64,000 nt of DNA from assembly GCF_000730285.1 (NCBI RefSeq), contig NZ_CP007174.1, forward strand, positions 2,046,001-2,110,000. The letters are read 5' to 3'. This DNA is from Candidatus Nitrososphaera evergladensis SR1. Its GTDB lineage: Archaea > Thermoproteota > Nitrososphaeria > Nitrososphaerales > Nitrososphaeraceae. The notes beneath the pieces were generated by a model, which made no database searches, was not told the DNA's origin, and saw nothing but the letters and a program-made list of their open reading frames with translations. Positions within the stretch are counted from its first letter, which is position 1. Every line of letters begins with the position of its first letter. Positions 32,943-47,181 of this stretch are shown in pieces. A program made the position numbers and the translations under genes.

Positions 32943-33087
32943 CCTCTCTACCTCATCCAGACGATGGAACTAAGAAGGATAGTTTCACTCATAAAGAATC
33001 TGTTCATCCTTGCAGCAATTTCCATAATTCGTCAATCAACGTAAAATCACAAATCTTGGGAGTCTTATCTATATCCCGAAATGTAAG

Positions 33088-33162
33088 TGGGCCCAAAGGG
33101 ATTCGAACCCTTGGCCGACCGGTTATGAGCCGGTCGCTCTAACCAGGCTGAGCTATGGGCCC
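33088..33162 (-). tRNA. tRNA with CAU anticodon (Met or Ile2)
   Basis: Read on the minus strand from 33162: acceptor GGGCCCA pairs with TGGGCCC, D-loop contains AGCCTGGTTA, anticodon stem ACCGG/CCGGT with loop C-T-CAT-A-A, T-loop TTCGAAT and discriminator A. The 75-base gene has no intron. The CAU anticodon can belong to elongator Met or to Ile decoding AUA after modification; sequence alone does not decide. Confidence 0.9.
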
Positions 33163-33978: not shown

Positions 33979-34098
33979 GCTCCGGTGGTGTAGTGGCTAT
34001 CCTGCCGGCAACCATCCTCCGGCAAGGGGCTGCACAGTCCGGTCAAGCATTGTGGCCTTTCGAGTCGCAGATCCCGGGTTCAAATCCCGGCCGGAGCA
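33979..34098 (+). tRNA. tRNA-Glu (UUC) with D-loop intron
   Basis: Acceptor GCTCCGG (33979-33985) pairs with CCGGAGC (34091-34097), discriminator A 34098. D-stem GTGT/GCAT, anticodon stem GTGGC/GTCGC with loop C-T-TTC-G-A, T-stem CCGGG/CCCGG with loop TTCAAAT. A 44-base insert at 33995-34038, bordered by repeated AGT, must be removed to give a normal D-loop (AGTCCGGTCAA) and a 76-base tRNA. This is a non-canonical intron position. The 3' exon from the anticodon loop onward is the left attachment site of the integrated element. Confidence 0.85.
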
Positions 34099-34100
34099 CT
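34055..34100. repeat. Left attachment site (attL core)
   Basis: The 46-bp core begins just before the anticodon loop of tRNA-Glu (GCCTTTCGAG) and ends two bases after the discriminator (GGAGCACT). It is identical to 45170-45215. It completes the tRNA gene on the chromosome side and is in frame with the C-terminal integrase part. Confidence 0.92.
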
Positions 34101-35051
34101 ACTCTCTCATGTTATACCAAGTCCGATAGTAACCCTGACCACCACCTTCAGCCCTTACCATTAGCAGTAAGGTCGTTCTTACCACAGACATTAAGCTCGA
34201 AAGTCACAACGCTTGACCGGACTGTGCAACCCGACTGGAATGGCTTCCGTCAATACCTAAACAACATACAAAATCCAAAGGTAGCCAACGACACCTTGCG
34301 CTATGCCCGCCAACACTATCGCATTCTGTGGGGAGAAGGAATGGAAGAGCTTCTTCAGCTATCACAAGGGAAGCAACGACACGTTATGAAGGCAATGTCT
34401 TCTCTCTCAAAGTATCTTGGGTGTTACAATCATTGGAAGGAAATCAGAGAAGGCTACCAATTGAAATGGTCTCAACAGGACAGCCTTGAACTGTTCCATA
34501 ACATAATCGACAATGAGCATAATTACAGTGCCATGATAGAATGGCTGAAAGAAGCTTGTGCCAAATCACCCAAGTCGTATGCAGATATCCTGATCTATGC
34601 CACTTTAACTGGCCTAAGAGCACAAGAGGTCATAGATAGCATACGCTTGATCAAGACTACTCCTGAAAATTACCTGAAAAAAGATTCAATGATTCTAGAG
34701 CACTATCGATATCCCAATCTCTTTATCAGACGAACCAAGAAAGCATACGTGAGTATAGTAAGCGAAGACATACTACAATTAGCGAAGACAGCGGGCAATC
34801 ACAGCTATATGGCCATTCGAATGGCGCTGGAAGAACGAGGAATGGCTACCAATATGAAGTATTGCCGCAAGATTTTCTCCACCTATCTTCGTATGAATGG
34901 CATTGAATCAGAGTTAATCGACCTACTTCAAGGGAGGATACCAAAGACTGTATTTGCGAGGCATTATTTCAGGCCAGACTTTGAAAAAGACATGGTAAGA
35001 ATAAGGAATGTACTTGAAAAATTGAAGGGTGAAATTACACTGCCAGCATGA
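34056..35051 (+). CDS. Integrase, C-terminal part int(C)
   Basis: This segment encodes the catalytic part of an archaeal SSV-type tyrosine recombinase. The conserved Arg is in TGLRAQEV, the second box in KYCRKIFSTYLRMNGIESE, and the His-Tyr nucleophile in RIPKTVFARHYFRP. The frame is open back through the attachment core, with no good start codon between, so it is only complete when joined to int(N) at 44979-45215. The joined protein would be about 395 residues, with Arg near 250 and Tyr near 367. Alone, this part is probably not translated. Confidence 0.9.
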   Translation, partial: PFESQIPGSNPGRSTTLSCYTKSDSNPDHHLQPLPLAVRSFLPQTLSSKVTTLDRTVQPDWNGFRQYLNNIQNPKVANDTLRYARQHYRILWGEGMEELLQLSQGKQRHVMKAMSSLSKYLGCYNHWKEIREGYQLKWSQQDSLELFHNIIDNEHNYSAMIEWLKEACAKSPKSYADILIYATLTGLRAQEVIDSIRLIKTTPENYLKKDSMILEHYRYPNLFIRRTKKAYVSIVSEDILQLAKTAGNHSYMAIRMALEERGMATNMKYCRKIFSTYLRMNGIESELIDLLQGRIPKTVFARHYFRPDFEKDMVRIRNVLEKLKGEITLPA

Positions 35052-35063
35052 CTACGGCGGATA

Positions 35064-35384
35064 TCAAAGCTCTACGGCATATTCGCCTGTTCTCAGGAAT
35101 CGATCAACTGCGCCAAAGAACGTAATAACTGTCAAGATCAAACTAAATGCCGGACTGACTACCCAATCAACTAGGAATTTTGTGTTATTTGCAGCCTGCA
35201 AACACTTGTCTTGATTGTCTGTCATTCTCATACATTGTGCAACCGTGGTATCGTAGGTACTGTTGAAAATCCGTGCCAAGCCTTCCTTAATGGGATCAAA
35301 TATCCACCCGAGAACATATTCGGTGACCAAATGCCATGATAACCAAAGCAAAAGAAAGACAACAATCTGTATTTTAGTTACCAT
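35064..35384 (-). CDS. Two-helix membrane protein, 106 aa
   Basis: Helices at about residues 5-28 and 72-92 flank a soluble loop with two Cys (VAQCMRMTDNQDKCLQAAN) that could form a disulphide. The 3' end faces the integrase gene and is 12 bases from its stop. Function unknown; membrane proteins of this type are common in small archaeal elements. Confidence 0.6.
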   Translation of the reverse strand: MVTKIQIVVFLLLWLSWHLVTEYVLGWIFDPIKEGLARIFNSTYDTTVAQCMRMTDNQDKCLQAANNTKFLVDWVVSPAFSLILTVITFFGAVDRFLRTGEYAVEL

Positions 35385-35486
35385 AGGCAGACAGAATCTT
35401 GTTCCGGTATTTACCTACTAAAGTTTTCGAACTATCTTTTGGCATGGGCAGCTTTCAAATAACTCTCCCATTTTTCTAGCCGCCCT

Positions 35487-35618
35487 ATGGAAAAAGAAAA
35501 ATGCAAAACATGCAATGGCCGGGGATATGTGGTGATCGGTACAACTACTACGAGTTGCGAAGCCTGCAAGGGTAATGGTGTGATCACTTCTAACACTATG
35601 GAGAACTACTTTGGTTAA
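35487..35618 (+). CDS. DnaJ-type zinc-finger microprotein, 43 aa
   Basis: ATG 35487 to TAA 35618. It contains two Cys-x2-Cys-x-Gly-x-Gly units (CKTCNGRG and CEACKGNG), exactly the DnaJ zinc-finger repeat spacing, so one zinc is probably bound. It has no J-domain. A role as a small protein- or nucleic-acid-binding module is possible. Confidence 0.68.
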   Translation: MEKEKCKTCNGRGYVVIGTTTTSCEACKGNGVITSNTMENYFG

Positions 35619-35692
35619 AAGCTGTCTTGCTTCCACTATTAGATCCGTTAATAAATTGCAAATTTTTTATATTATCACAATAAATCAATTCT

Positions 35693-35848
35693 ATGTCAGA
35701 AGAAGACCCAAGGCGTACAGCTCTTTACCAACGTCTACAGGTTCTTGGAGTCAATGTATCTAAGATAAAGGACATGGAGATTACATTAGAGGCTCTTTTA
35801 GAGCTGACTGAAAGATTGGAGGAGATCATTCAAACAGATAAGTTTTAG
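35693..35848 (+). CDS. LGVN-type microprotein, 51 aa
   Basis: ATG 35693 to TAG 35848, with an AT-rich TATA-like box (TTTTTTATATTA) about 25 bases upstream. The sequence DPRRTALYQRLQVLGVNVSKI followed by LLELTERLEEII matches the chromosomal protein at 12499-12678. Acidic and helical; function unknown. Its presence in the element links the element with the 11-14 kb island. Confidence 0.7.
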   Translation: MSEEDPRRTALYQRLQVLGVNVSKIKDMEITLEALLELTERLEEIIQTDKF

Positions 35849-35898
35849 GCACCACCGACAGCACAAAAAAATACTGCGGCCTTGTGATCTTACCAAGT

Positions 35899-36450
35899 CT
35901 ACAACCAAACCTTTCTGGTAATGGCAAAATCTTCAATGATACCTACTTCTGATCCCCTGTTTACCAGAGTAACACGTATTCTGGAAGCATAGGGAGTATA
36001 AGGAATTGGAGTGAATGCTAACGAGTATTTCTGCCCTTCTTGGCCAGTAATATCAGCTTCTTCCGTACTCTTATAGCGTAAAATGTATGGGTGTCTGGGG
36101 TTGCTTTTTCCCGCCGGGTCAGGGGAGATTCCTGCCACCGGTGCCACTTCGCCCGCACCTACGCCCCAATTCTTGGTTATCAAATCGACAAACGTTTCAT
36201 GCCCTTGTTGGATACTGACACCAGCTCCACTAGTACCCCAGATCTCTACGTTCAGACCAAGATATCGATAATTCCCATGGAGTTCGAATAAGTAAAGCTC
36301 TCCGCTTTCTTTTTGATCTATTACAACTCTTTCTTCTCTGCCCTCTAATGCCAAGTTGCTAATGTCATTTTGAACGAATTGATACTTTCTGCCAAAGTTG
36401 TCGGTTTGAACAGCGTGTATGGATTGATTTATGGACTTATTTGTTGACAT
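35899..36450 (-). CDS. Beta-rich protein, possible structural component
   Basis: A 183-residue protein predicted to be mostly beta-strand (GELYLFELHGNYRYLGLNVEIWG, KYSLAFTPIPYTPYASRIRVTLV) without catalytic motifs or membrane helices. The strand-rich, soluble pattern is compatible with a virion or sheath protein, but nothing proves it. It is the last gene of a leftward group with 36458 and 36701. Confidence 0.6.
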   Translation of the reverse strand: MSTNKSINQSIHAVQTDNFGRKYQFVQNDISNLALEGREERVVIDQKESGELYLFELHGNYRYLGLNVEIWGTSGAGVSIQQGHETFVDLITKNWGVGAGEVAPVAGISPDPAGKSNPRHPYILRYKSTEEADITGQEGQKYSLAFTPIPYTPYASRIRVTLVNRGSEVGIIEDFAITRKVWL

Positions 36451-36457
36451 GTTTTTA

Positions 36458-36676
36458 TCACCTGAAACGGTTGCAATCCGCCGTCAGTGCTTTAATGAAA
36501 ATTGCCTCATTGCTAAGATTTCGGATAGAGTTGTAGTCTCCAAGATTGGTGGAGCGGATAATGCCTCTATCCACGTCATCAAGAATATTCATTGCAATCT
36601 TGCATACTTCTGCTTTCGCTCCCCTAGATAATCTTGGAACCAGCCTGTTAACAGCTCTTACACTTTTGTCTGGCAT
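36458..36676 (-). CDS. Small helical protein, 72 aa
   Basis: A basic helical protein (VRAVNRLVPRLSRGAKAEVCKIAMNIL...SIRNLSNEAIFIKALTADCNRFR) 7 bases before the next gene on the same strand, which suggests translation as part of one transcript. Function unknown. Confidence 0.58.
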   Translation of the reverse strand: MPDKSVRAVNRLVPRLSRGAKAEVCKIAMNILDDVDRGIIRSTNLGDYNSIRNLSNEAIFIKALTADCNRFR

Positions 36677-36700
36677 TTTGATTCACCAAATTAGTACAAC

Positions 36701-37255
36701 CTAAGTATAGGAGAAATCTGCATAGGAAATCTTACTATTTACTGATCTAGATAACTCGTTTGCCCGGTATGAGCCGCCGTTACTTGTAGGGGTAAATGAA
36801 TAGAGAAAACTATTGGCCCGGCCATCGTTCTGTGCTCTGATATCTCGGGGTGTCATTTTCCTTAGATTACCTTGGGGAGCTGAAGCGTACGCTTGCGAGG
36901 GTGTAAAAGTCCTATCCCATATTGCTCTCGCTTGTGAAACTGCACTGGTAACGTGATTCTGGAGATTGAAGCCCGCTGCACTGGCCATTTTGCTTATGAC
37001 CGTGCCAACAACAGCTCCAGCTCCAAGATTGACAAATGTCTTTTGCTTGAGTACGTAGCCGGTGCCGGCTGCGGCGAGTCCAAGCCCACCGGTCAGTGCA
37101 TCTGCTTTTGTCAGTGATACCATTCCTGTTAATGGAATGATAGGAGAATTAAGGACTGGTTGCGAGTTTGCAATCTGATTTACTGCAAAGCCGCCCACAG
37201 CTCCTAACGCCAACTGAACAACGTCATTAGAACCTAAATTTGTAAGACTAGTCAT
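36701..37255 (-). CDS. Hydrophobic Gly/Ala-rich protein, possible virion or membrane protein
   Basis: A 184-residue protein with Gly/Ala-rich hydrophobic stretches (VQLALGAVGGFAVNQIA, LTGGLGLAAAGTGYVL, LGAGAVVGTVISKMASAAGF) in the first 100 residues and a polar Ser/Tyr-rich tail. Small viruses of archaea often have such membrane-embedded structural proteins. The gene follows a TATA box and a palindrome (37272-37283) just before its ATG. It is the first of three leftward genes. Confidence 0.62.
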   Translation of the reverse strand: MTSLTNLGSNDVVQLALGAVGGFAVNQIANSQPVLNSPIIPLTGMVSLTKADALTGGLGLAAAGTGYVLKQKTFVNLGAGAVVGTVISKMASAAGFNLQNHVTSAVSQARAIWDRTFTPSQAYASAPQGNLRKMTPRDIRAQNDGRANSFLYSFTPTSNGGSYRANELSRSVNSKISYADFSYT

Positions 37256-37271
37256 GAATATTCAATATAAT

Positions 37272-37283
37272 ATGTTTAAACAT
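37272..37283. promoter_or_regulatory. Palindromic operator candidate, left copy
   Basis: ATGTTTAAACAT, a perfect 12-bp palindrome, lies between a minus-strand TATA box (CTTTAAATAC) and the start codon of the gene ending at 36701. A repressor bound here would block transcription start. The same 12 bases occur at 37566-37577. Confidence 0.58.
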
Positions 37284-37348
37284 GTATTTAAAGTACTGCT
37301 GATTTTAATGAAAAAAGGGCAAGAAATACCCCTATTACTATACTAAAC

Positions 37349-37522
37349 CTAACTCGAAATTACAGGAGTAAACACAATTGAACCTCCAAACCTTTTCTGT
37401 CTAAAGGTAATTTGACGAGATCCGTCAAAACCTAGCTCTTTCAATAATTCTTTATTTATACTCACATAATGGGTTTGCCGGATTAATTGCGTTTTTCGTA
37501 TGTTAGTGGGATTGTATGTCAT
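37349..37522 (-). CDS. AbrB-like DNA-binding protein, 57 aa
   Basis: ATG 37522 to TAG 37349. The segment IRKTQLIRQTHYVSINKELLKELGFDGSRQITFRQKRFGGSIVFTP has the strand-helix-Gly-strand layout of the SpoVT/AbrB swapped-hairpin fold (YVSINKELLKELGF). Such proteins dimerise and bind AT-rich sites. It lies between the two copies of the ATGTTTAAACAT palindrome, so it is a candidate for the element's repressor. Confidence 0.66.
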   Translation of the reverse strand: MTYNPTNIRKTQLIRQTHYVSINKELLKELGFDGSRQITFRQKRFGGSIVFTPVISS

Positions 37523-37563
37523 CTATACTAAATAACCAAACGGTTATATTTAAGAATTATAGG

Positions 37564-37579
37564 AAATGTTTAAACATTT
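37564..37579. promoter_or_regulatory. Palindromic operator candidate, right copy
   Basis: AAATGTTTAAACATTT is a perfect 16-bp palindrome containing the same 12-bp core as 37272-37283. It lies about 8 bases upstream of the TATA box (ATTTAAATAC) of the gene at 37621. A related half-site (GGTTAAACATT) precedes the TATA box of the gene at 42764. Confidence 0.6.
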
Positions 37580-37620
37580 TAGGCTAAATTTAAATACTTG
37601 CAAATAGTATAAATACTGGA

Positions 37621-38118
37621 ATGACAGCAAGTATCAGTTTTTCAGGGTCAGGATTTGACTTTGACATTAACATGTACGGATTCACACCCGGCGAATTAGT
37701 TACCATCGTCTTTACCAACGTGAACAACTCTAATGATATGTATTCGATCGACACCTATGTAGGTTACAATCCGATACATGTCCTGCAGCAACATTTCCCG
37801 GCGGAAGCTGAAGGCAATTACCACGTCACGGCCGTAGGTTCAACTGGCACAAAGGCGGAAAATACTTTGACTATAGGTTATCCTACCGTGCAGGGCATTC
37901 TGCCAAATACAGAAGTGCCTCTGGAAAATATCACAAATCAAGGTGGAGAGACGGTACCAATATTCGGGCAGCTCGAATCGATTGGTGGAGCAGCTGTACC
38001 TTCAGCTATTCCTACTCAAACTTCACAGAATAATTCAATTCCATTAGTCTTGGCAGGTGGAGCTCTGTTAGGAGGTCTGTTGCTAATATCTGGTGGAAAG
38101 AAGAAAGTGTTTGCCTGA
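37621..38118 (+). CDS. Surface-anchored beta-domain protein
   Basis: A 165-residue protein with an Ig-like beta domain (residues about 5-95, FTPGELVTIVFTNVNNSND, HVTAVGSTGTKAENTLTIGY), a Pro/Ser/Thr/Asn-rich stalk, and a C-terminal helix (PLVLAGGALLGGLLLIS) ending in the basic GGKKKVFA. No N-terminal signal peptide is evident. It could be a tail-anchored surface or virion protein of the element. TATA and AT-rich sequence place the transcript start almost at the ATG. Confidence 0.65.
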   Translation: MTASISFSGSGFDFDINMYGFTPGELVTIVFTNVNNSNDMYSIDTYVGYNPIHVLQQHFPAEAEGNYHVTAVGSTGTKAENTLTIGYPTVQGILPNTEVPLENITNQGGETVPIFGQLESIGGAAVPSAIPTQTSQNNSIPLVLAGGALLGGLLLISGGKKKVFA

Positions 38119-38218
38119 CTTTTACCATATCAGATAATGGAGGTAATACAACTTAAGGAGTAGTCTGAAACAGAGACAAATACCTAAAATAATATCGTTC
38201 TAATCTTAGGTAATATCA

Positions 38219-38917
38219 TTGCAAAATAGTGATCTAACTCTTACGAAAGCACTTTTCAAAACTGCACTTTCTGATTATAATGCTGCAAAGCTATTATGGG
38301 AGAAGGGATTCTATCCACAATGCATTTTCTACTTAGAACAAGCCTTTGAAAAGGCAAGCAAATCTATTATTGCGCACTTTTCCGTTAACCTCAAAAAATG
38401 TCCTCAAGAGAAAATTGAAAAAGAATTGAAGAAATCTTTCGGGCACAATAACAAGTATTCTGCCTATACGGTAGTAATGGAGCTACTTGAAGCTGACAAG
38501 TGGAAGAAACAACAATCCGGGAAGTGGAACGAAAAACAGGCTAACGTTGCTTTTGCTTTTGCTGAAGGTCATAAGAAAACAAAGCAGAATTACAAAATTG
38601 AACAATATTGCAATATGGTCGATTACTACTATTCGAAATACAATCAATTCATGGCACACCCTAAACTAAGACATCCTGCTAATGCAATCTTGGCGTTAAA
38701 TTGGGCATTGTCCAGCTGCTTTGAAGATATGGAGAATAGAGCAAGATACCCGCTTTCAGAACACGGATACTTGAATCTAGATAAACTAAACCAAGAAAAG
38801 AACAAAGACTGTTACAAATTGCTCCTTATCATGGTAAGAGACTACATTAACCGAACGCCTGATTTGATTAATGTTGCAAACGAGCAATTACCACCGTATT
38901 ATAACAGACAGAGATAG
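38219..38917 (+). CDS. HEPN-domain-like protein
   Basis: A 232-residue helical protein starting at TTG 38219. The N-terminal region (KTALSDYNAAKLLWEKGFYPQCIFYLEQAFEKASKSIIAHFS) matches the HEPN pattern of a two-helix pair with A-x2-Y and E-K-A-x-K positions. A catalytic R-x4-6-H is not clear. HEPN proteins are often RNases or partners of nucleotidyltransferases in toxin-antitoxin and defence systems. No nucleotidyltransferase gene is adjacent. Confidence 0.65.
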   Translation: MQNSDLTLTKALFKTALSDYNAAKLLWEKGFYPQCIFYLEQAFEKASKSIIAHFSVNLKKCPQEKIEKELKKSFGHNNKYSAYTVVMELLEADKWKKQQSGKWNEKQANVAFAFAEGHKKTKQNYKIEQYCNMVDYYYSKYNQFMAHPKLRHPANAILALNWALSSCFEDMENRARYPLSEHGYLNLDKLNQEKNKDCYKLLLIMVRDYINRTPDLINVANEQLPPYYNRQR

Positions 38918-38971
38918 AATTCAAGAACAAAAGAAAAAGGACGTTGCTCACTTCACGATAGAGTGAGCTCA

Positions 38972-39163
38972 CTAGTTAGCTAACAGCGTATGCACTACTC
39001 TTTCGAACCAATCTTCAAGCGAAGTTACACTAGAGGTTACACTGGAAGTTCCACTATAAACCACAGTAATATTGTGTCCACTAGATCTGCCGTTCGAAGT
39101 TACACTAGAAAAATGAATGGGTGTGGTGGTGTTAAGTAGGAAGTCGTCTATCAGGTCAGACAT
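38972..39163 (-). CDS. Ser/Thr/Val-repeat protein, 63 aa
   Basis: ATG 39163 follows the MCM gene stop by one base, so the two are probably translated together. The middle (FSSVTSNGRSSGHNITVVYSGTSSVTSSVTSLEDW) contains repeated SVTS units, and the DNA shows repeated GTTACACTAGA-like blocks. The ends are helical (DLIDDFLLN and DWFERVVHTLL). Function unknown. Confidence 0.5.
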   Translation of the reverse strand: MSDLIDDFLLNTTTPIHFSSVTSNGRSSGHNITVVYSGTSSVTSSVTSLEDWFERVVHTLLAN

Positions 39164-39164
39164 T

Positions 39165-41297
39165 CTAGTTACCACCTTTTTTGAATCCGACACTTAGGCA
39201 GGAATTGCCAGAAGCTATGACTATTTCTTCGTCTTTATGTGCAGGACAGGCACAGGATTTGCCTTTTGGTTCATGGTCGTAGATATCATTTGTTTCTGGC
39301 ATTGACGGAACCCTCCATTTTAGGACTAATGGTTTCTTTTGTATGATCTCGACTCTGCTATCCGTGCATTCTTGGAACATTTCAAGCAGGTTTCGTAATT
39401 TCTTGTTCTCTCTGGTTACAAGGTTGACTCCTAGGTAATTGCCAACTCTTTCGTTGTTTTTGCAAGCTATTCTCGCTGCTTCTACGAATTCAATTGGTTT
39501 TTTGGCGTTCTCGACAACTTTGACTATCTCCTTGAATGCGACTTCTATTGGATCTGCACGAACTGTCTCTGCAAGTTGTCCTTGCTCTGCCAACATTGTA
39601 GTGTAATATTCCATTAATTCAATGACAAGCTCTTTGTCCACTACAGTTTCTAAGTGAAGTCGTGCATATGCTGAAGAGAGTCTAAAAAGAGCGTCAAGAT
39701 TTCTGTTTGTCGCCCTGCCGGTAGATCTCAAACTAATCCAGTATTCTTTGAGCATTTCCCTTGCTTCGGTTGTGAAAGTTGGATAGATTGTCTTGGCGTG
39801 AGCTATGTATTTTCTAAGGAAGTTGTAGTTGTGTTCAATATGTCTTTCATCATAGTCCATTTTTGCATCTGCATAATCCCTCATAGATTCTTCAGTCACA
39901 AAGTCACGGAATACAAACTTCTGATCAAATCTATCCAATACTTCTTTCTTGACTGGTATTTCACTCATGTCAATCGAATGATCACTATTCCAAGTTGAAC
40001 CGATTGGGTTGCACGTTGCAATTATGGTAGTTGGGGAATCGATTTCTTGACGAATGCCATACTTATCAATCGTGAAATCCCCTTCTTCCATGACATCATG
40101 CAAGTGTTTCTGATCTTCAAAGCTCATTGTTCCAATTTCGTTGATTGCACAAATGCCATTCTTTGACAGCGGAATTGATCCAAGTCTCAATACTGCATTT
40201 TCATTCTCCATTACAATAATCGCTGTCAGACTCTTTCCGCTTGCGCCCTGAGCGCTTACATACCGACTGTTAGGAACAAGTCTTATGGATTCTCTAGCTA
40301 GCATGGACTTTGCTGTACCGGGTGCTCCTACAAAGAGTGAATGTATTCTACCACGTTTTCCATTCTCTGGTGCTCCGACAGCAGATAACAGGATTCCTAG
40401 TTTCTTGTCTTTGTGACCAACTACGTTAGGAGCTACCATTGATACTAGTCTTTCACGAAGAGTTGGTATGTATGTGACCTTTGTGACGCTAGTGACCTTT
40501 GTGCCCAGATCCTTGAACCTATAGATATTTTCTACGTCCTTTTCAGTTACCTTCAGCTCTTGTCTTCTGTGATATTTGATAGATTCTGCATGTAGGACAG
40601 TAGTTAGCTTCTTTGTTATGAATTTCATTATGTGACTTGTGCCCTTGATTTCTACTAGCTCCCCGGCAATGACATTACAAGTATCCTTTCCATACAGTAT
40701 GATATCCAGACGTTCTAGATCTCCTGTAGGATTAGGATCTTGGAGTTGTATAGAGAGAGCGGTAGCATAGTCAAACTTGGGTAGGTTTTTCTGTCCACAG
40801 TTTCTACATTTTTTTGGTATACCAGATTCTTCAAATTTTGGAGGATTGTGCTCTGTCTCGTCATACTGGTCACAAGAGTTACACCCTATCATTGTCTTTG
40901 TAATAACCTTGTAAGGTAATGATTGACTAACGATTACTCCTTTGACAGATAGTTTCACGGAAGACGTTGTACGTAATGCTTCAGAAATTGTCATAGACAC
41001 AAAATTCTGGTCACATTGGGCACAAGGGTCACTATGTGGATTAGATTCTTCTGCCATAGTCGAGTGTGAAGGTCTTTCGCCGGCGATAATCAACCTCGTG
41101 TTGAATCTCTTTAGCCGTGTAATTTCGCCTTTAAATCTATCCGCTATCTCAACTGGCAACAACTTGACGGCTTCGATAAACGTGAGTGAATCAATCGGGA
41201 ACCTACTATCACGAGATATCCCTTCATTCTCTAATGCAGACTTTAGCTCAATTGGCATAGTCGCAAGGAATTGATCAAGTTCTTCTCTTGTTGTCAT
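39165..41297 (-). CDS. Element-encoded MCM-like replicative helicase
   Basis: A 710-residue MCM-family AAA+ protein. The N-terminal OB region has a zinc ribbon (CNSC...CRNC) near 138-170. The motor has Walker A GAPGTAKSML near 320, a Walker B region ICAINEIGTM near 380 in which the usual first Asp is Asn, sensor-1-like IIATCNPIG, and the arginine finger in VLDRFDQKF. It probably unwinds the element's origin. The sequence departs markedly from chromosomal MCM, and the Walker B change makes full ATPase activity uncertain. Confidence 0.85.
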   Translation of the reverse strand: MTTREELDQFLATMPIELKSALENEGISRDSRFPIDSLTFIEAVKLLPVEIADRFKGEITRLKRFNTRLIIAGERPSHSTMAEESNPHSDPCAQCDQNFVSMTISEALRTTSSVKLSVKGVIVSQSLPYKVITKTMIGCNSCDQYDETEHNPPKFEESGIPKKCRNCGQKNLPKFDYATALSIQLQDPNPTGDLERLDIILYGKDTCNVIAGELVEIKGTSHIMKFITKKLTTVLHAESIKYHRRQELKVTEKDVENIYRFKDLGTKVTSVTKVTYIPTLRERLVSMVAPNVVGHKDKKLGILLSAVGAPENGKRGRIHSLFVGAPGTAKSMLARESIRLVPNSRYVSAQGASGKSLTAIIVMENENAVLRLGSIPLSKNGICAINEIGTMSFEDQKHLHDVMEEGDFTIDKYGIRQEIDSPTTIIATCNPIGSTWNSDHSIDMSEIPVKKEVLDRFDQKFVFRDFVTEESMRDYADAKMDYDERHIEHNYNFLRKYIAHAKTIYPTFTTEAREMLKEYWISLRSTGRATNRNLDALFRLSSAYARLHLETVVDKELVIELMEYYTTMLAEQGQLAETVRADPIEVAFKEIVKVVENAKKPIEFVEAARIACKNNERVGNYLGVNLVTRENKKLRNLLEMFQECTDSRVEIIQKKPLVLKWRVPSMPETNDIYDHEPKGKSCACPAHKDEEIVIASGNSCLSVGFKKGGN

Positions 41298-41300
41298 TTT

Positions 41301-41546
41301 TCAATTCACCTTTACGGCGTGGAGCATTGCAGTACGGAAGAGTATGCGAATATGCTCGACTGAAGCGTACCAAATATTGTAGAGGTTACAACGTTCTTCT
41401 ATCAATTGGTGAATCTTTTGCAATGACGTACCATAGGCGACAGAGATTGGTGTCTCACAACCATCTGTGCTGTAAATGGTAATCACTTCACCGTTAATGC
41501 CAATGTGGTCAATGCGTCTTTCAGCGTCAAAATGAGATACCATCAT
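41301..41546 (-). CDS. Hypothetical protein, 81 aa
   Basis: A small mixed alpha/beta protein (MVSHFDAERRIDHIGINGEVITIYSTDG, TSLQKIHQLIEERCNLYNIWYA) whose stop lies 3 bases before the MCM start codon. It is therefore likely to be co-transcribed with the helicase. An initiator or helicase-loading role is possible from position only. Confidence 0.55.
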   Translation of the reverse strand: MMVSHFDAERRIDHIGINGEVITIYSTDGCETPISVAYGTSLQKIHQLIEERCNLYNIWYASVEHIRILFRTAMLHAVKVN

Positions 41547-41648
41547 TTTGCAATCACCGAGATTAGCACCATATTCAGGATCACAGACAACGAAAATGTC
41601 AGTGGTAGAACATAATTCGTTATAAGATTAATATAAGAGATCTTCGAT

Positions 41649-41840
41649 CTATACACTGTTCACCACCTTTGAATCTGGTAGGTTAACATCTGATTGCGGA
41701 GCTGCAAACTCTGCGATCTTATTTCTTTCCACGTTAACTTTTGACCAGCAAGAAGGACACGAAGTATTTTGCCTCAATGACCTTGTATTCCAAGTCCAAG
41801 AACACTTTGGACATTTTATCGGTATTTGATTACCTAACAT
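41649..41840 (-). CDS. Zinc-ribbon protein, 63 aa
   Basis: The N-terminal half (IPIKCPKCSWTWNTRSLRQNTSCPSCWSKVNV) is a C-x2-C...C-x2-C zinc ribbon, common in small nucleic-acid-binding proteins. The rest is polar. It is the first gene of the leftward group (zinc ribbon, 81-aa protein, MCM, repeat protein) facing the palindromic region, so it may aid replication or its control. Confidence 0.65.
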   Translation of the reverse strand: MLGNQIPIKCPKCSWTWNTRSLRQNTSCPSCWSKVNVERNKIAEFAAPQSDVNLPDSKVVNSV

Positions 41841-42185
41841 TTTACAAGTAGTAGTAGCACTAACAGATATATAAACTTTTAATCTATCTATAGCTTTCGC
41901 TACAATTTAGTATAATACTGTACCACTAATAAACTTACCGATTCAGCGTTGGACGGTAACACGTGTTAGAAATGCCATTTTTGATTTTTCAAAAGTTTTA
42001 ACTACACTATGAAAAGTGAAAAAGATCATGTGTTACCGTGTTGATTTTTGTCAAAGTCTGCAGAAATTCGTGCTCAAAAATGGTGGTAACAGCAGTAGCG
42101 GCAGTAACACGTGCCACAATGCTGTATACTATACATAATGTAATCATTCTTTACCTAATACCAGACGTTATAGGACATGTTACAA

Positions 42186-42201
42186 GTGTTACCGTGTTAC
42201 C
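42186..42201. repeat. Tandem GTGTTACC iterons
   Basis: GTGTTACC is repeated twice back-to-back. Further GTGTTAC or GTAACAC copies lie at 41956-41968, 42029-42036 and 42104-42110, so the left half of the region has an iteron-like array. Confidence 0.65.
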
Positions 42202-42325
42202 AAACTAGTTATCTCTGATACTACATGCCTCTGAATAACACATTCGTCAATTATCGCACCAAGTGAAAGGGTCTTGACCTTGGCACATTAGTGTAGTCCA
42301 ATGGATACAAGAGACAACAATATTG

Positions 42326-42356
42326 TTACACTATTAATAGTGTAAAACACCGGTGT
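42326..42356. repeat. Palindrome module 1
   Basis: TTACACTATTAATAGTGTAA (20 bp, perfect) is followed after one base by the perfect palindrome ACACCGGTGT. A related TACCGGTGTA occurs 22 bases later (42379-42388). Confidence 0.75.
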
Positions 42357-42564
42357 AATCCATTAGAAATAGGTCAATACCGGTGTAAAAATATGTAAAC
42401 GTTATGTAAAAGTAAAAGAAAGATCCCGAAAAACCACCAATTTCAACCATTCTGTCTCATGCGATCAAACCTACAATTTTCGTTTGCTTTTATTTCTTTG
42501 TACATATTTGCAGATCTAAAAATCATTTTTCCAATGGATTATTAGTGTTTATTGTTAGTATTTT

Positions 42565-42603
42565 ACACTATTAATAGTGTGTTTTACCGGTCACACCGGT
42601 GTG
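42565..42603. repeat. Palindrome module 2
   Basis: ACACTATTAATAGTGT (42565-42580) shares its 16 bases with module 1. It is followed by ACCGGT and the 12-bp palindrome CACACCGGTGTG (42592-42603). The repeated order of the two palindrome types is the main evidence that the modules are functional. Confidence 0.75.
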
Positions 42604-42763
42604 CCTCCAATGTATCCAGTAGAAATAATAGTGTTGCAATATTATTCACCAAAAACCGACCATGCTACTGTAATAACTATTCCAAATCTTAGTCTTTTTT
42701 GTTAGTTTTGGTTAAACATTTAAATAATAGTGTAAATAATAATATGATATCGTATATAATAAT

Positions 42764-43180
42764 TTGACAGAAGAAAATTTGACGGATAATTTAACAAAAG
42801 AAAGTTTACCTCAAAGCACAGAACAAGTTAATACAGCACAAAGTGGCAAAGAAGAAACGACTTCGTTCATACCACAAATCGATTCCCAAACTCAGCGCAT
42901 GATAATCGAGCGTGGCGTGGACTTTTTGGAGAAGATGGCAGGTGTTCAACCAAAAAAGCCGGAGCAAAAGCAGTTTGGCGTTTACTTCAGTCCAGAAGAG
43001 ATCCAGCTTCTTGAAATATACGCTAGGGAGTTATTCAATGACGGTTATATCAGTCGCAACTCGATTGGATCACTTTGTAGATTCTGCACTATTGCCTTTC
43101 TAAAGAACTCGCAAAACCAAGCATTGGAAAATGTTCGTGCAAGACAAGCGGCGCAAACAAAAGAAAGTGGTCAACAATGA
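42764..43180 (+). CDS. Hypothetical protein, 138 aa
   Basis: Starts at TTG 42764 (the ATG-free start follows a TATA box CATTTAAATAATAG about 40 bases upstream). The first 40 residues are polar Asn/Thr/Glu-rich; the second half (FGVYFSPEEIQLLEIYARELFNDGYISRNSIGSLCRFCTIAFLKN) is a compact helical domain. Its layout resembles that of the last protein of the block (44282). It starts a rightward block of six genes. Function unknown. Confidence 0.6.
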   Translation: MTEENLTDNLTKESLPQSTEQVNTAQSGKEETTSFIPQIDSQTQRMIIERGVDFLEKMAGVQPKKPEQKQFGVYFSPEEIQLLEIYARELFNDGYISRNSIGSLCRFCTIAFLKNSQNQALENVRARQAAQTKESGQQ

Positions 43181-43611
43181 CAGTCTACATTATAGACGCT
43201 GATAATATCGACTTTGAAGGGATTAACAAGTTCAAAAAAATGGGTTTGATAACTAATGGAGAACCTATCCTTCGTAGCATTGTACTTGAGCAGACAATCC
43301 AGAACAAAGACTGGCCAGTGTTCAGGATAGACACACCTTATGGGAAGTTCAAGGAAATCTTTGAAAAATTCTTACCTGAATTAATGACGGTTGTATCTGG
43401 CAATGCTGACTCGAAAACATTAAGCGATAACGCTGGAGTTGACACTGAAGTTGACACAGAAACCAAGAAAAAAGAAGTTGATAAGGTCAAAGTTGAAAAT
43501 GCTGATCCTGAGATACCTCAATATCTTCAGACTATGCAACAAGTTGTTAACACTGTCGGAGTACCAATCCTTGAAAAGTTTGGTGGTGGATTAGCGCAAA
43601 AGGTGAATTAG
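43177..43611 (+). CDS. Hypothetical protein, 144 aa
   Basis: Overlaps the previous gene by 4 bases (ATGA), a sign of coupled translation. The N-terminus MTVYIIDADNIDFEGINKFKKMGL contains an Asp pair that loosely resembles P-loop or NYN-type starts but does not match them. The middle is charged (VDTEVDTETKKKEVDKVKVEN) and the end helical. Function unknown. Confidence 0.55.
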   Translation: MTVYIIDADNIDFEGINKFKKMGLITNGEPILRSIVLEQTIQNKDWPVFRIDTPYGKFKEIFEKFLPELMTVVSGNADSKTLSDNAGVDTEVDTETKKKEVDKVKVENADPEIPQYLQTMQQVVNTVGVPILEKFGGGLAQKVN

Positions 43612-43616
43612 AAAAA

Positions 43617-43994
43617 ATGGACACAATAAAAGATAACGTGAATTGCACTGTCTACCTCAACCACCACTTTGCCAAAACGATTGACACATACTTAGATTCA
43701 TTCAAGTCGCTCCGCTTTGACGTAAAACAGACGAGGGCGAGTGCAATCAAACACATGGCAGCCTCCTATTCTTCAATATTCAATCTGGACAATATGGCAT
43801 TGCTCAAAAAGTATGATGAGCTCCAGAGAACAACCGCCATTGGCAAGTCCTCCAAAGATCTCTACTCAGAGTTAAAACAAGAAGCGAACAATGCAGTAAA
43901 GGAAAAGCTCACCAACGCAATCAACAATTTGAGTCAACGAGCGGGGAAGTTTGCAACGTTTGAAGCTCTCGACTCTTTGAGAAACAGGCGATAG
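43617..43994 (+). CDS. Hypothetical helical protein, 125 aa
   Basis: A predominantly helical, Lys/Asn-rich protein (VYLNHHFAKTIDTYLDSFKSLRFDVKQTRASAIKHMAASYS, KQEANNAVKEKLTNAINNLSQRAG). Five bases separate it from the previous gene. No motif is recognised; it may bind DNA or a partner protein. Confidence 0.58.
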   Translation: MDTIKDNVNCTVYLNHHFAKTIDTYLDSFKSLRFDVKQTRASAIKHMAASYSSIFNLDNMALLKKYDELQRTTAIGKSSKDLYSELKQEANNAVKEKLTNAINNLSQRAGKFATFEALDSLRNRR

Positions 43995-43996
43995 AA

Positions 43997-44110
43997 ATGA
44001 ACAAGTTAACTATACCGCCAATCATGGAGAGAGAAGAAGCATTAGAAAGAGTTGCGCTATTCCTCATAGCAAAAGAGGTATCGGTACTTCGTAAATGGTT
44101 AGGGGAATAA
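43997..44110 (+). CDS. Short helical protein, 37 aa
   Basis: ATG 43997 directly after the previous stop, TAA at 44110. The peptide MNKLTIPPIMEREEALERVA and onward is helical with a basic and hydrophobic end (VSVLRKWLGE). It fits between its neighbours with no gap, so coding is plausible. Function unknown. Confidence 0.5.
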   Translation: MNKLTIPPIMEREEALERVALFLIAKEVSVLRKWLGE

Positions 44111-44112
44111 GA

Positions 44113-44277
44113 ATGGGCAGACCAAGGAAGAAGAAGCAAGAAAAGAGAACATTCAGCCGAACAGAATGGGAAAGGATCCGCAGAGAAATGCCTTCATTCA
44201 ATGAACAAGAGTTAAAAGAATTCTTTGACTTTCCCCGGATAGTAGCTGATCCAAAAATGGATTCTGGGTATCTTTAG
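44113..44277 (+). CDS. Basic small protein, 54 aa
   Basis: ATG 44113 begins MGRPRKKKQEKRTFSRTEWERIRREMPSFNEQELKEFFDF. The basic start resembles an AT-hook (GRPRKKK) or nuclear-type basic patch, followed by two helices. It may bind DNA. Two bases separate it from the preceding stop. Confidence 0.55.
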   Translation: MGRPRKKKQEKRTFSRTEWERIRREMPSFNEQELKEFFDFPRIVADPKMDSGYL

Positions 44278-44281
44278 CAAG

Positions 44282-44698
44282 GTGGGCAGATTGGGAGACA
44301 TAAACAGTTTCAATGTTGACGACATTCCACTTTCAAAGAAGTCTAGTAATGTGGTAGCAGGTGACATTAATGTTGGAAAGAAGTCTCCAGCGGAGTTAGA
44401 GCAAGTTCATATCGAAGAGGATTTACAGACACAATTAGCAGTAACTGATTCAATCTTTTCATTACAATCATTAGACGATAAAACCCAGAGAGAGTTAGCG
44501 GAGTTTGCCGGGTATTACTATGAACGTGGAAGGATAACCCAACCAACTATACAGGCGTTAATCCAATACCACTTTGACAAAATAATGGACAGTATAAGAT
44601 CAGAGTACGAGAGCCATATTTTCAATAAGCAATTGGAAGAAGCAATGATGCGATCAATGGGCATAAAACCTGAAGATATAGACAAATTCAAATTTTAA
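44282..44698 (+). CDS. Hypothetical protein, 138 aa
   Basis: Starts at GTG 44282. An acidic N-terminus (LGDINSFNVDDIPLSKKSS) is followed by a helical domain (LAEFAGYYYERGRITQPTIQALIQYHFDKIMDSIRSEYESH). The order of acidic region and helical domain is like the protein at 42764, and the helical parts may be distantly related. It ends the rightward six-gene block. Function unknown. Confidence 0.58.
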   Translation: MGRLGDINSFNVDDIPLSKKSSNVVAGDINVGKKSPAELEQVHIEEDLQTQLAVTDSIFSLQSLDDKTQRELAEFAGYYYERGRITQPTIQALIQYHFDKIMDSIRSEYESHIFNKQLEEAMMRSMGIKPEDIDKFKF

Positions 44699-44840
44699 CA
44701 ACTTTTATCTTCCTTAGTATGATACTGTACCTCTTTTTTCCTGCTTTTTTGTGATTTTTCCTATAAACTTAAATACTTAAGTTAGTATATTTTACATTGC
44801 CCACAACACTACTGTTTGAACGACACTTTGGAACATGCAG

Positions 44841-44871
44841 GAGGTGAGAGGAGTCATTACCCTCTCACCTC
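44841..44871. repeat. Perfect 11-bp stem hairpin
   Basis: GAGGTGAGAGG at 44841-44851 pairs exactly with CCTCTCACCTC at 44861-44871 around a 9-base loop. It lies between the last gene of the block and the int(N) gene. It could be a terminator, an RNA element, or a protein-binding dyad. Confidence 0.6.
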
Positions 44872-44978
44872 ATACTTATCTCAAATTTGGTAAGATTAGT
44901 TCTGTAGCTTCTTCTCTAACTCTTTAAGTCCAATAATAGACTCAACTCTAATTAACAACAATCCAATATACCGCATTA

Positions 44979-45215
44979 ATGGCGCTTCTCACAGCTTCTG
45001 AACTAGCTTGGTTGAAAGGTGAAAAACAAGTTTCTAAAGGCTATGAACATAAAATGAAAAGTGTAGTCAAGAAGAAGCTGCATACTTTCCTAGCTGAGGA
45101 ATATGCCCTAATTGTAAGAAAGTGCTACGGACGGAATTTGAACGAATTACCAGATATGGTAAGAAATTTGCCTTTCGAGTCGCAGATCCCGGGTTCAAAT
45201 CCCGGCCGGAGCACT
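44979..45215 (+). CDS. Integrase, N-terminal part int(N)
   Basis: From ATG 44979 it encodes MALLTASELAWLKGEKQV and a basic helical domain (KMKSVVKKKLHTFLAEEYALIVRKC), then PFESQIPGSNPGRST, which is the translated attachment core. The same 15 codons, in the same frame, open int(C) at 34056. Joining the two through the core gives one integrase. In the integrated state the frame runs past the core into chromosomal sequence and ends at 45293, so the truncated product is probably inactive. Confidence 0.85.
45170..45215. repeat. Right attachment site (attR core)
   Basis: An exact 46-bp copy of 34055-34100. It forms a partial tRNA-Glu 3' exon without the 5' half, so it is not a tRNA gene. It marks the right end of the element. 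Confidence 0.92.
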
Positions 45216-45928
45216 TTCTCATGTTTTCACACATATATTGCATCGAACCAGAAAGAGCAGATACAGAATTACCGCAGCAGCATAAAGACATAACAAATAG
45301 AGAGTGGTCAGGAGAGCATATTATTTTGGTCTGGTAGCTCTGTTACAGACAAAAGGGATACAAACAAGCCGCTCCCCCTGACCAAGGGGAAGGATGCTTG
45401 CATTTCTTTTATAACTTGTGTAATGAGTGCCTAGAGATTGCCTCTTTCCAAAAGCTCCTTGACCAACGGTCCTGTCCCCGGAACGATGCAACTTGTGGAG
45501 ACAGGACCATGTGCGAGTCGTTATATCTGCTATTTGATGTGCATCACCGCGGTATAAAAAACTCGATTAACTTGGTTATCGCGGCGGTTCCCAGACAATC
45601 GCCAGTCGACGTGTATGTTTCAAAAGGCCACTACTAAAAGTCAGAGTTTCTAATGGCAGGAAGGCAAAGTGAAAAAATACGATTTCACTCATTTTACATC
45701 TTTCAAACTGTGAATAAAATAACAAGGGGGACTGACGCTGGAACGGGACAAGGTTCCAGCATGAGCCACAACAACGATCAAGCGTACACGAGAGGTAACG
45801 GTTCCTTTTTCAGCCCCTGCCTTTTCCAGGGATCGAGAGATTAAATGACTTTCTATGATTCTCTGGCCGCCTCTCCCTCCCCTTGGGGTGCCAGCTAGAA
45901 TATAATGTTCAACTTGCTTGGCAATGTG
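45216..45928. other. Gene-poor stretch with hairpins
   Basis: No gene is supported. Two clear inverted repeats are seen: GGTCCTGTC/GACAGGACC (45468-45476 and 45500-45508) and GCTGGAAC/GTTCCAGC (45737-45744 and 45753-45760, 8-base loop). A short frame from 45761 (MSHNNDQ...) is too weak to call. Confidence 0.45.
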
Positions 45929-46129
45929 ATGGCATGTCGAAACATGTGTGAAAGGTTAAGAGACACTACTCGCACCTTTTACCCTTCGCCGTATGAAGCA
46001 GGCTACAAATATTGCCAGAGGTGCGCGCTCTTCATAAAGTTTCAGGGCATTGCGTGCCCTTGTTGCCACAAACGATTAAGGGTCAGGGCTCGTGAAAGTG
46101 TCAGGAAAAAAGAGCACGTCCGGTTTTGA
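45929..46129 (+). CDS. Zinc-ribbon protein, 66 aa
   Basis: ATG 45929 gives MACRNMCERLRDTTR followed by KYCQRCALFIKFQGIACPCCHKRLRVRAR. The C-x2-C...C-x-C-C ribbon and basic end are typical of a small zinc-binding family in thaumarchaea. An extra eight residues are possible from 45905. It probably binds nucleic acid or protein; target unknown. Confidence 0.72.
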   Translation: MACRNMCERLRDTTRTFYPSPYEAGYKYCQRCALFIKFQGIACPCCHKRLRVRARESVRKKEHVRF

Positions 46130-46190
46130 ATAGTCAAGCGAAGAAAACCGTCACGGAACATGATGATGCAACACACGCCCAACTGGGCAT

Positions 46191-46364
46191 TTATTTTGAT
46201 TTGGGCAGGCAGTGCTTGCAAAAAAACTGAATGGCTGTGCTGCCCCACAGGTCAAACATGGCTTCGCTTGTCGCAGGTCTAGAACATTCTGAGCAGTACT
46301 TTGGAAATGCATTCTTTTCTTCTTCCTCGTCGTCAATTGATCTGATTTCGTATGGCATCAGCAT
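46191..46364 (-). CDS. Zinc-finger protein, 57 aa
   Basis: ATG 46364 to TAA 46191 encodes an acidic N-terminus (IDDEEEEKNAFPK) followed by YCSECSRPATSEAMFDLWG and FFCKHCLPKSK. The two C-x2-C pairs, about 20 residues apart, form a probable zinc ribbon. Convergent with the zinc-ribbon gene at 45929. Function unknown. Confidence 0.65.
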   Translation of the reverse strand: MLMPYEIRSIDDEEEEKNAFPKYCSECSRPATSEAMFDLWGSTAIQFFCKHCLPKSK

Positions 46365-47181
46365 GAGAAGTAAACGGGCTGCATATTATAAAAGCGACAG
46401 GAGTACAGTGCGCTATCTTTTCACTGACAGCAAAAAAATTATTGCGATGTACCCTTGACATTTTTATTTTATGAATTCAAACTTCTCCTTAAGAAGGTAA
46501 GGTCCCACACAACTTATCTTCGCCCCACACAGATGCAGATGACGGGGTCAGGAACGGGCTAGCTCTCGCAGGCAAGGGCCTTGAAAAGCGGCAGTTCCCC
46601 CTGATCTCCCGATTCTCTCTTGGATACTTGTTGTTTTACTTTTCAATGAGTTTCGGATGCATATATAACAGGCTGGCAAAAAATATTAGAAATTGTCCAA
46701 GTCGACTCTTGTCGTGTCCTTGCTGCATAACTTCATTGAAGCGGCGACGGATTTATCCTACTAGTCGAAAAAAATAGCACGCGGAACAAGCCTTGTCTGC
46801 ATCTGTCGCATTTATTTATCCACAGACAATGGCAGCAGCAAAAACATTCCTGCTGGAACCCAAGCATACAGAACAGGAAGATTGTTTGAAGGCATATTGG
46901 ATGAAATAGCAGCGGCATCTAACCCGAAATTGCTGGATGGGGTGTTCAGCAGGAGAGCACACAGGATGGGCAACAGTCGAGGCCCGGGAGGAATCAGAAG
47001 CAAGAAACTTACTTACTTGCACTCTCTCTCCACATTCTACTAAAAGAATAGAAAAGCAGAATGGAGAAGGTTTTCTGCAAGCATCACCCATATTCTGTAT
47101 GTTATTGACATATTCGTATCGATGTAGTGATAAATTAATATGGTCAACTAATCGAATCACCCTCAAGGAAAGAGCTAGTTC
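46365..47181. other. Long intergenic region
   Basis: No convincing gene is present. A GGGGTCAGG (46544-46552) and CCTGATCTCCC (46600-46610) pair resembles the core helix of the possible RNA at 30960-31150, and a TATA-like ATATATAA lies at about 46661-46668. Confidence 0.4.

Follow-up and report, generated by a model that had tools for sequence, protein, structure and literature searches.

A Suicidal SSV1-Type Integrase in Candidatus Nitrososphaera evergladensis SR1 With an Attachment Site Probably Flipped by Recombination at the Anticodon Loop

Introduction

Contig NZ_CP007174.1 of Candidatus Nitrososphaera evergladensis SR1 (NCBI RefSeq assembly GCF_000730285.1) contains, between positions 2,046,001 and 2,110,000 of its forward strand, an element that is integrated at the 3′ half of a transfer RNA (tRNA) gene, tRNA-Glu(UUC), and whose integrase gene (int) is divided into two parts, int(N) and int(C), at the two ends of the element. 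This whole stretch of 64,000 nucleotides (nt) is referred to as the window, and coordinates are those of the window unless genome positions are indicated. The attachment core lies in the integrase frame, and integration splits int and restores the tRNA, whereas the circular form would encode an intact integrase of 395 amino acids. The best overall reading of the element, which we regard as probable, is that of a suicidal integrase whose attachment site has been flipped by recombination at the anticodon loop. Antisense target-tRNA fragments that flank the core, a systematic test of possible inversions, and the distribution of insertion geometries among related integrases are the main lines of evidence, and are described below together with palindromic sequences that surround the core.

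The Split Integrase and Its Target

The attachment (att) repeat comprises 46 bp and is identical in its left (34055–34100) and right (45170–45215) copies, both on the forward strand; it starts in the anticodon loop and ends just past the 3′ end of the tRNA, and a chance origin of an exact repeat of this kind is excluded. Similarity between the two sites extends beyond the 46 bp: over 59 columns, with one gap of 3 nt, their identity is 93%. The left copy doubles as the first codons of int(C) (34055–35051, forward strand), which encodes the linker and the catalytic domain, and the right copy lies within the frame of int(N) (44979–45215, forward strand), which starts at ATG 44979, encodes the N-terminal domain, and runs through the repeat. 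The original prediction, made from the DNA letters and their open reading frames, had placed the repeat at each end of the element inside the integrase frame and proposed that excision would rebuild a gene of approximately 395 codons. Both statements agree with the computed join of 44979–45169 to 34055–35051, which is 1188 nt long, in frame, and open throughout, with 395 codons, a stop, and no internal stop. A complete integrase gene elsewhere in the element, the finding by which the prediction could have failed, was looked for and not found; no second integrase fragment of the same family was found inside the element, and no second integrase was recognized among ten scanned proteins (the joined integrase and the nine larger open reading frames). 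The G+C content of the element is 39.7%, compared with 48–56% outside, which marks it as foreign. In the integrated state, an open frame from GTG 33951 spans the entire tRNA gene, intron included, and joins int(C) in frame, to 35051.

The integrase is almost certainly a suicidal enzyme of the SSV1 type, as judged from its sequence. The joined protein matches Phage_integr_3 of Pfam (PF16795; E = 5e-8, 33.5 bits, cut-off 27), which is the domain assigned to suicidal integrases by the FEMS 2021 review (PMC8371274), and PHROG 5127, annotated as "integrase" (E = 4.8e-12); PF16795 is also matched by all 13 of the 13 aligned relatives. A profile of these 13 relatives found credible matches in the PDB only to the catalytic domains of SSV1 integrase (3uxu, 4dks, and 3vcf; E approximately 1e-3), and the fold predicted for int(C) agrees with the same SSV1 structures at a TMt of 0.67–0.69 over approximately 170 residues. 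The arginine of TGLR, a lysine, and the tyrosine of HY(F/Y)RP are conserved. The domain, profile, and fold matches bear out the earlier proposal of an SSV-type integrase that is inactivated by integration; as in other integrases of this type, the target is a tRNA gene that is rebuilt by integration.

The attB target, tRNA-Glu(TTC), occupies 33979–34098 on the forward strand and contains an intron of approximately 44 nt in the D loop (about 33994–34037, from the alignment to the intronless orthologue L176). Its identity as tRNA-Glu(UUC) and the position of the intron were set by comparison with the intronless orthologues L176 and L178. ARAGORN in its default mode missed the gene and reported only tRNA-Met (33087–33162), ARAGORN with introns allowed named it "Arg," and its score with the Rfam tRNA model was below threshold; Rfam plastid and tmRNA matches were set aside as cross-matches to tRNA sequence. 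Congeners have the same left-hand gene followed by tRNA-Glu, with a polyprenyl synthetase gene tens to a few hundred bases behind in most of them, and this conserved order permits an empty-site comparison, by which 34101–45169 is inserted. A further 1.9 kb of other origin (45216–47130), missing in most congeners, separates the right att copy from the polyprenyl synthetase gene, genome G042 has approximately 4 kb at the matching position, and the region downstream of tRNA-Glu looks like an insertion hot spot. The right flank (45216–47130) was considered as a second int remnant and rejected, as it has neither int nor tRNA similarity.

Distribution and Attachment Geometries of the Integrase Family

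The integrase has matches in 31 of 70 Nitrososphaeraceae genomes; within the class, its profile gives matches in 38 of 330 genomes, and contigs of Nitrosopumilales and Bathyarchaeia contain further relatives. The genome of strain SR1 itself carries at least four split-integrase elements or remnants of this family, including the studied one. The others are associated with tRNA-Pro(TGG) (L053, genome position approximately 814465–818888; 44-bp repeat), tRNA-Pro(CGG) (L054/L267, approximately 1722595–1738413; 52-bp repeat), and tRNA-Thr(CGT) (L049, approximately 783500–789150; decayed), and all have the antisense geometry. In the metagenome-assembled genome G018, a tRNA-Glu (L047) is apparently flanked by two family elements, one of which uses the 5′ half and the other the 3′ half. 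The apparently intact int genes L039 and L055 were rejected as proof of a free form, since their N and C parts are out of frame, as in tandem junctions or decayed genes.

Geometries were called by listing the tRNA fragments of each locus in the orientation of the integrase. In the A3 geometry, the layout of SSV1, int is antisense to the tRNA, the attachment site of the element (attP) contains the 3′ half, and int(N) lies beside the intact tRNA; in S3, int is sense, attP contains the 3′ half, and int(C) lies beside the intact tRNA; and in S5, int is sense, attP contains the 5′ half, and int(N) lies beside the intact tRNA. The original prediction had correctly noted that int(C), and not int(N), adjoins the intact tRNA in the studied element, which is accordingly S3, one of three geometries within the integrase family. 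The SSV1-like layout is absent here; it is the layout that differs, and not the family.

When the geometry labels are placed on a maximum-likelihood tree, at least seven changes are required among 45 catalytic domains and eight among 55, including outgroups. The A3 element L069 at tRNA-Arg(TCG) is nested in an S5 clade of the same tRNA (L041/L014/L057; support 98/82 and 100/83), and the S3 element L020 pairs with the A3 element L036, both at tRNA-Thr, with weaker support (86/61 and 86/66). S3 is a minority state and, as outgroup elements are mostly A3, is probably derived. The joined frames remain open across the core in all three geometries: all 200 downstream codons examined are open in L035, L043/44, and L045 (S3), in L038, L041, and L052 (S5), and in L040 (A3), and 182 codons are open in L046 (A3), whereas the frames of L036, L037, and L050 are broken.

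Inverted tRNA Fragments and a Proposed Inversion of attP

The sense core of the studied element is flanked by two inverted copies of its own target. Inside int(C), 34196–34232 (reverse strand) corresponds to the intron end, D arm, and anticodon loop of tRNA-Glu at 89% identity (0 of 1000 shuffles), and inside int(N), 45117–45143 (reverse strand), encoding RKCYGRNLN, corresponds to the T arm, acceptor, and trailer, also at 89% (2 of 1000 shuffles). Element L035, which is located at the intronless tRNA-Glu(CUC), has the same two arms at the same places, and its int(C) arm is the CUC version without the intron, whereas that of the studied element is the UUC version with the intron end. Furthermore, L020 carries a perfect 43-nt antisense copy of the 5′ half of its own tRNA-Thr, and the A3 elements L037 and L049 are the mirror image, with sense arms around an antisense core. 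In each of these elements (the studied element, L035, L020, L037, and L049), the inverted arms match the element's own target tRNA, including the presence or absence of the intron and the C/T difference between the Glu isoacceptors. Arm identities are graded, from 100% to approximately 76%, and the arms mostly end at the crossover site.

One explanation without a flip is that the fragments are functional arms of attP, i.e., extra integrase-binding half-sites that match the target and are kept by selection. A match of 83–100% to the current target in the clearest cases is in line with such a function, as is the int(C) arm, which follows the isoacceptor and the intron in the studied element and L035 despite 57% identity between the catalytic domains. 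However, most classified loci of the family are without detectable arms, which are thus not needed, and decay varies in the manner of relics of differing age; we consider functional arms unlikely, and the antisense fragments on either side of the core would rather be relics of a flip.

Inversion was tested by trying, within each attP, all inversions whose ends form an exact inverted repeat of 5 bp or longer. An inversion that renders the tRNA contiguous was obtained for one of 113, one of 111, and one of 65 candidates in the studied element, L035, and L020, respectively, with its ends at the anticodon loop. In the studied element, the bounding inverted repeat of the inferred inversion consists of the anticodon-loop octamers CTTTCGAG (34057–34064, forward strand) and CTCGAAAG (34196–34203, reverse strand), and the inversion between them raises the alignment score against the 120-nt tRNA gene from 45 to 63.5. 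Inversion between a pair of 9-mers in L035 raises the score from 44.5 to 63.5 and yields nearly the whole tRNA, and that between a pair of 18-mers in L020 raises it from 47 to 72 of 74; the score of the best alternative inversion in these three elements never exceeds 50. The antisense attPs of L024 and L066 contain both tRNA halves, which is the state required before a flip. Because the test relies on both fragments ending at the anticodon loop, it supports recombination at this position and cannot by itself separate inversion from the insertion of a core next to an old half-site.

Two reactions of related enzymes are in line with such a flip: cleavage by SSV1 Int falls at the anticodon loop (PMC8371274), and inversion of the DNA between inverted att sites has been shown in vitro for the suicidal integrase IntpTN3 (PMC5495485). 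By analogy with SSV1, strand exchange would occur at the anticodon loop, the element would integrate once with the loss of int, and excision would need an intact integrase in trans. With moderate confidence, we further propose that the placement of int(C) against the tRNA is derived and arose through a flip of approximately 147 bp of int: this piece, with inverted anticodon-loop copies at its two ends, would have turned around and changed the attachment site from antisense to sense. From the sequence comparisons, a flip of attP by anticodon-loop recombination is modestly favored.

Alternatively, another element may have supplied the sense core, inserted or swapped in through homologous or illegitimate recombination between related int genes, as in the chimeric-integrase model of Badel et al., with no inversion. 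Exchange of int(N), int(C), and att via recombination of integrated relatives is described in a review (PMC8371274), and the three or more further family elements in the same genome provide partners; a swap, however, leaves unexplained why, in three elements, the flanking pieces are opposite-strand copies of the element's own target that meet in register at the anticodon loop, and we hold it to be rather improbable. Several further points weigh against the flip. A pair of pre-flip and post-flip forms of one element was not found among the loci compared; a one-step flip presupposes an anticodon-like site that was already present on the int(N) side; and the relic of an old half-site with a new core inserted alongside would look alike. 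In addition, the inversion signal of L037 is weaker (38 to 51, with 4-bp ends), and the T-arm relic in int(N), taken alone, is barely significant.

A broader proposal is that suicidal integrases of Nitrososphaeraceae switch their direction of insertion by an Int-driven inversion of approximately 0.15 kb of their own gene at anticodon-loop copies, with the int frame staying open, and that they have true palindromic arm sites within the gene, a feature that the literature consulted does not describe for suicidal integrases. We advance this generalization tentatively and lean against it in its full form; if it is true, the same tRNA would be open to entry by these integrases in either the sense or the antisense direction.

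Palindromes Around the Core

The core of the studied element is also surrounded by 16-bp palindromes, i.e., TTACCAGATATGGTAA at 45147–45162 on the int(N) side and TTACCATTAGCAGTAA at 34155–34170 on the int(C) side, both of which are candidate arm-type sites, and a degenerate third copy, TTACCACAGACATTAA, is located at 34179–34194. The strict palindrome occurs three times in the 64-kb window against an expectation of 0.13, and two of the three flank the core. Across the family, the motif TTACYnnnnnnRGTAA has 72 matches in the integrase linkers (at most one mismatch, 34 kb), compared with a mean of 5.1 and a maximum of 11 in dinucleotide shuffles and with an expectation of 6.7 from the rest of the same loci, ratios that are slightly optimistic because the motif was chosen from the same loci and four sites are counted twice in two contigs with overlapping N and C stretches. 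In A3 and S5 attPs, the int(N) side commonly has two palindromes with a spacing of 21–60 bp, of which the first usually occupies nt 161–179 of the gene. The S3 attPs keep this first palindrome at the same place, the core follows approximately 8 bp later, and the second palindrome is on the int(C) side. Around the cores of Nitrosopumilales and Bathyarchaeia, the palindrome was not found, apart from a few copies with one mismatch.

The repeated element might be a peptide of the integrase linker rather than a DNA site. In accordance with this explanation, most copies on the int(N) side share one frame and mostly read LTKFSK (L-T-x-x-x-K); however, the DNA on the int(C) side is mostly read in another frame as LPNTVR (L-P-N-x-V-R), the int(N) copies of the studied element and L035 are also in this latter frame, and the symmetry is that of DNA. 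The different frames on the two sides argue for conservation of the palindrome as DNA and not as peptide, which renders a peptide repeat highly improbable. The palindromes are instead quite likely binding sites for a protein, and would serve as sites in attP for the N domain of the integrase or for another factor. The binder could plausibly be the integrase itself, an assignment that falls slightly short of probable.

Other Genes of the Element

The element carries an MCM-like replicative helicase of 710 amino acids (39165–41297, reverse strand; PF00493, 6.6e-41), an HEPN-domain protein of 232 amino acids (38219–38917, forward strand; PF05168, 6.2e-7), and otherwise orphan genes. No virion gene of the element, such as a structural gene of fuselloviruses or other spindle-shaped viruses, was recognized by a Pfam or PHROG match; with the helicase present and no recognized virion gene, it is best read as an integrated plasmid-like element. 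A 183-amino-acid, beta-rich protein yielded a low-confidence AlphaFold model (pLDDT 53), and its capsid-like Foldseek matches were not used for this reason. Scans of viral contigs, in which two small proteins of the element and the integrase profile served as queries, yielded no relatives, and no gene content beyond int is common to the other split-integrase elements compared.

A module of four small genes (35899–38118) is common to a second element in the same genome. This element, located near tRNA-Leu(TAG) (L265/L266, genome positions 1020814–1022979 and 1028719–1029397), matches 35899–38118 and 44095–44698; it has the four small genes at 57–97% identity, including those for the beta-rich 183-residue protein and two hydrophobic proteins, as well as the right-end genes, and in place of MCM it has a 514-residue protein that looks like a helicase or primase. 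The four-gene module could be a virion or transfer module. In addition, a palindromic iteron, TTACACTATTAATAGTGTAA, occurs as an exact copy at 42326–42345, with two mismatches at 42563–42582, and as weaker copies at 42002 and 42124; the region 42002–42582, upstream of the rightward genes from 42764, is a candidate replication origin or operator.

Comparison With Known Systems

The element is very probably NitEve-E3, a cryptic integrated element of N. evergladensis SR1 for which an SSV1-like integrase split by integration, an MCM helicase, no PolB, and no viral genes were reported in the relevant passages of Krupovic et al. (2019; PMC6563490), where the MCM helicase is named. All of these features (the strain, a split SSV1-like integrase, and MCM without PolB) are present in the studied element, and the identity with NitEve-E3 is deduced from these matches in genome and element features. 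The split of the integrase by integration is thus already published and is not new, whereas the passages of that account considered here do not cover how int is oriented relative to the tRNA, nor inverted tRNA arms, palindromes, or geometry switching. What is new is the switching of geometry within one family, the target-matched inverted scars, and the palindromic sites: in the open literature (subscription journals and supplements lay outside the scope), none of these features was found to have been reported before, and neither inverted att arms nor flips of att were found described for archaeal integrases. The persistence and change of target of self-destroying integrases were called a paradox in a 2021 review of archaeal recombinases. 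The present family offers many natural snapshots in this regard, with three geometries in one clade, switches at the same tRNA, and scars of graded age, and a single enzyme with short DNA substrates would suffice to test one route by which specificity and orientation may change. Furthermore, the palindromes raise the possibility that arm-type sites are used by suicidal integrases as well.

The integrases of the pT26-2 family are likewise of type I, with attP inside int, use of the 3′ halves of many tRNA genes, and chimeric evolution of int and att; by contrast, their att is always at tRNA 3′ ends, and inverted tRNA arms and palindromes are not mentioned in the passages concerned. SSV1 and the fuselloviruses resemble the studied element in the Phage_integr_3 domain, the core inside int, the crossover at the anticodon loop, and the fold. 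They differ in that int(N) of SSV1 overlaps the rebuilt tRNA (PMC3293823), whereas int(C) does so in the studied element, and palindromic arm sites are not described for SSV1 in the review (PMC8371274). IntpTN3, encoded by plasmid pTN3 of Thermococcus nautili, belongs to another branch of the family and another host order, and no record of a flipped attP was found for it. It is similar to the integrase studied here in being a suicidal plasmid integrase, and integration rebuilds its target tRNA-Leu at a distance from the promoter of that gene, which means that the 5′ side is used, as in the S5 relatives of the studied element.

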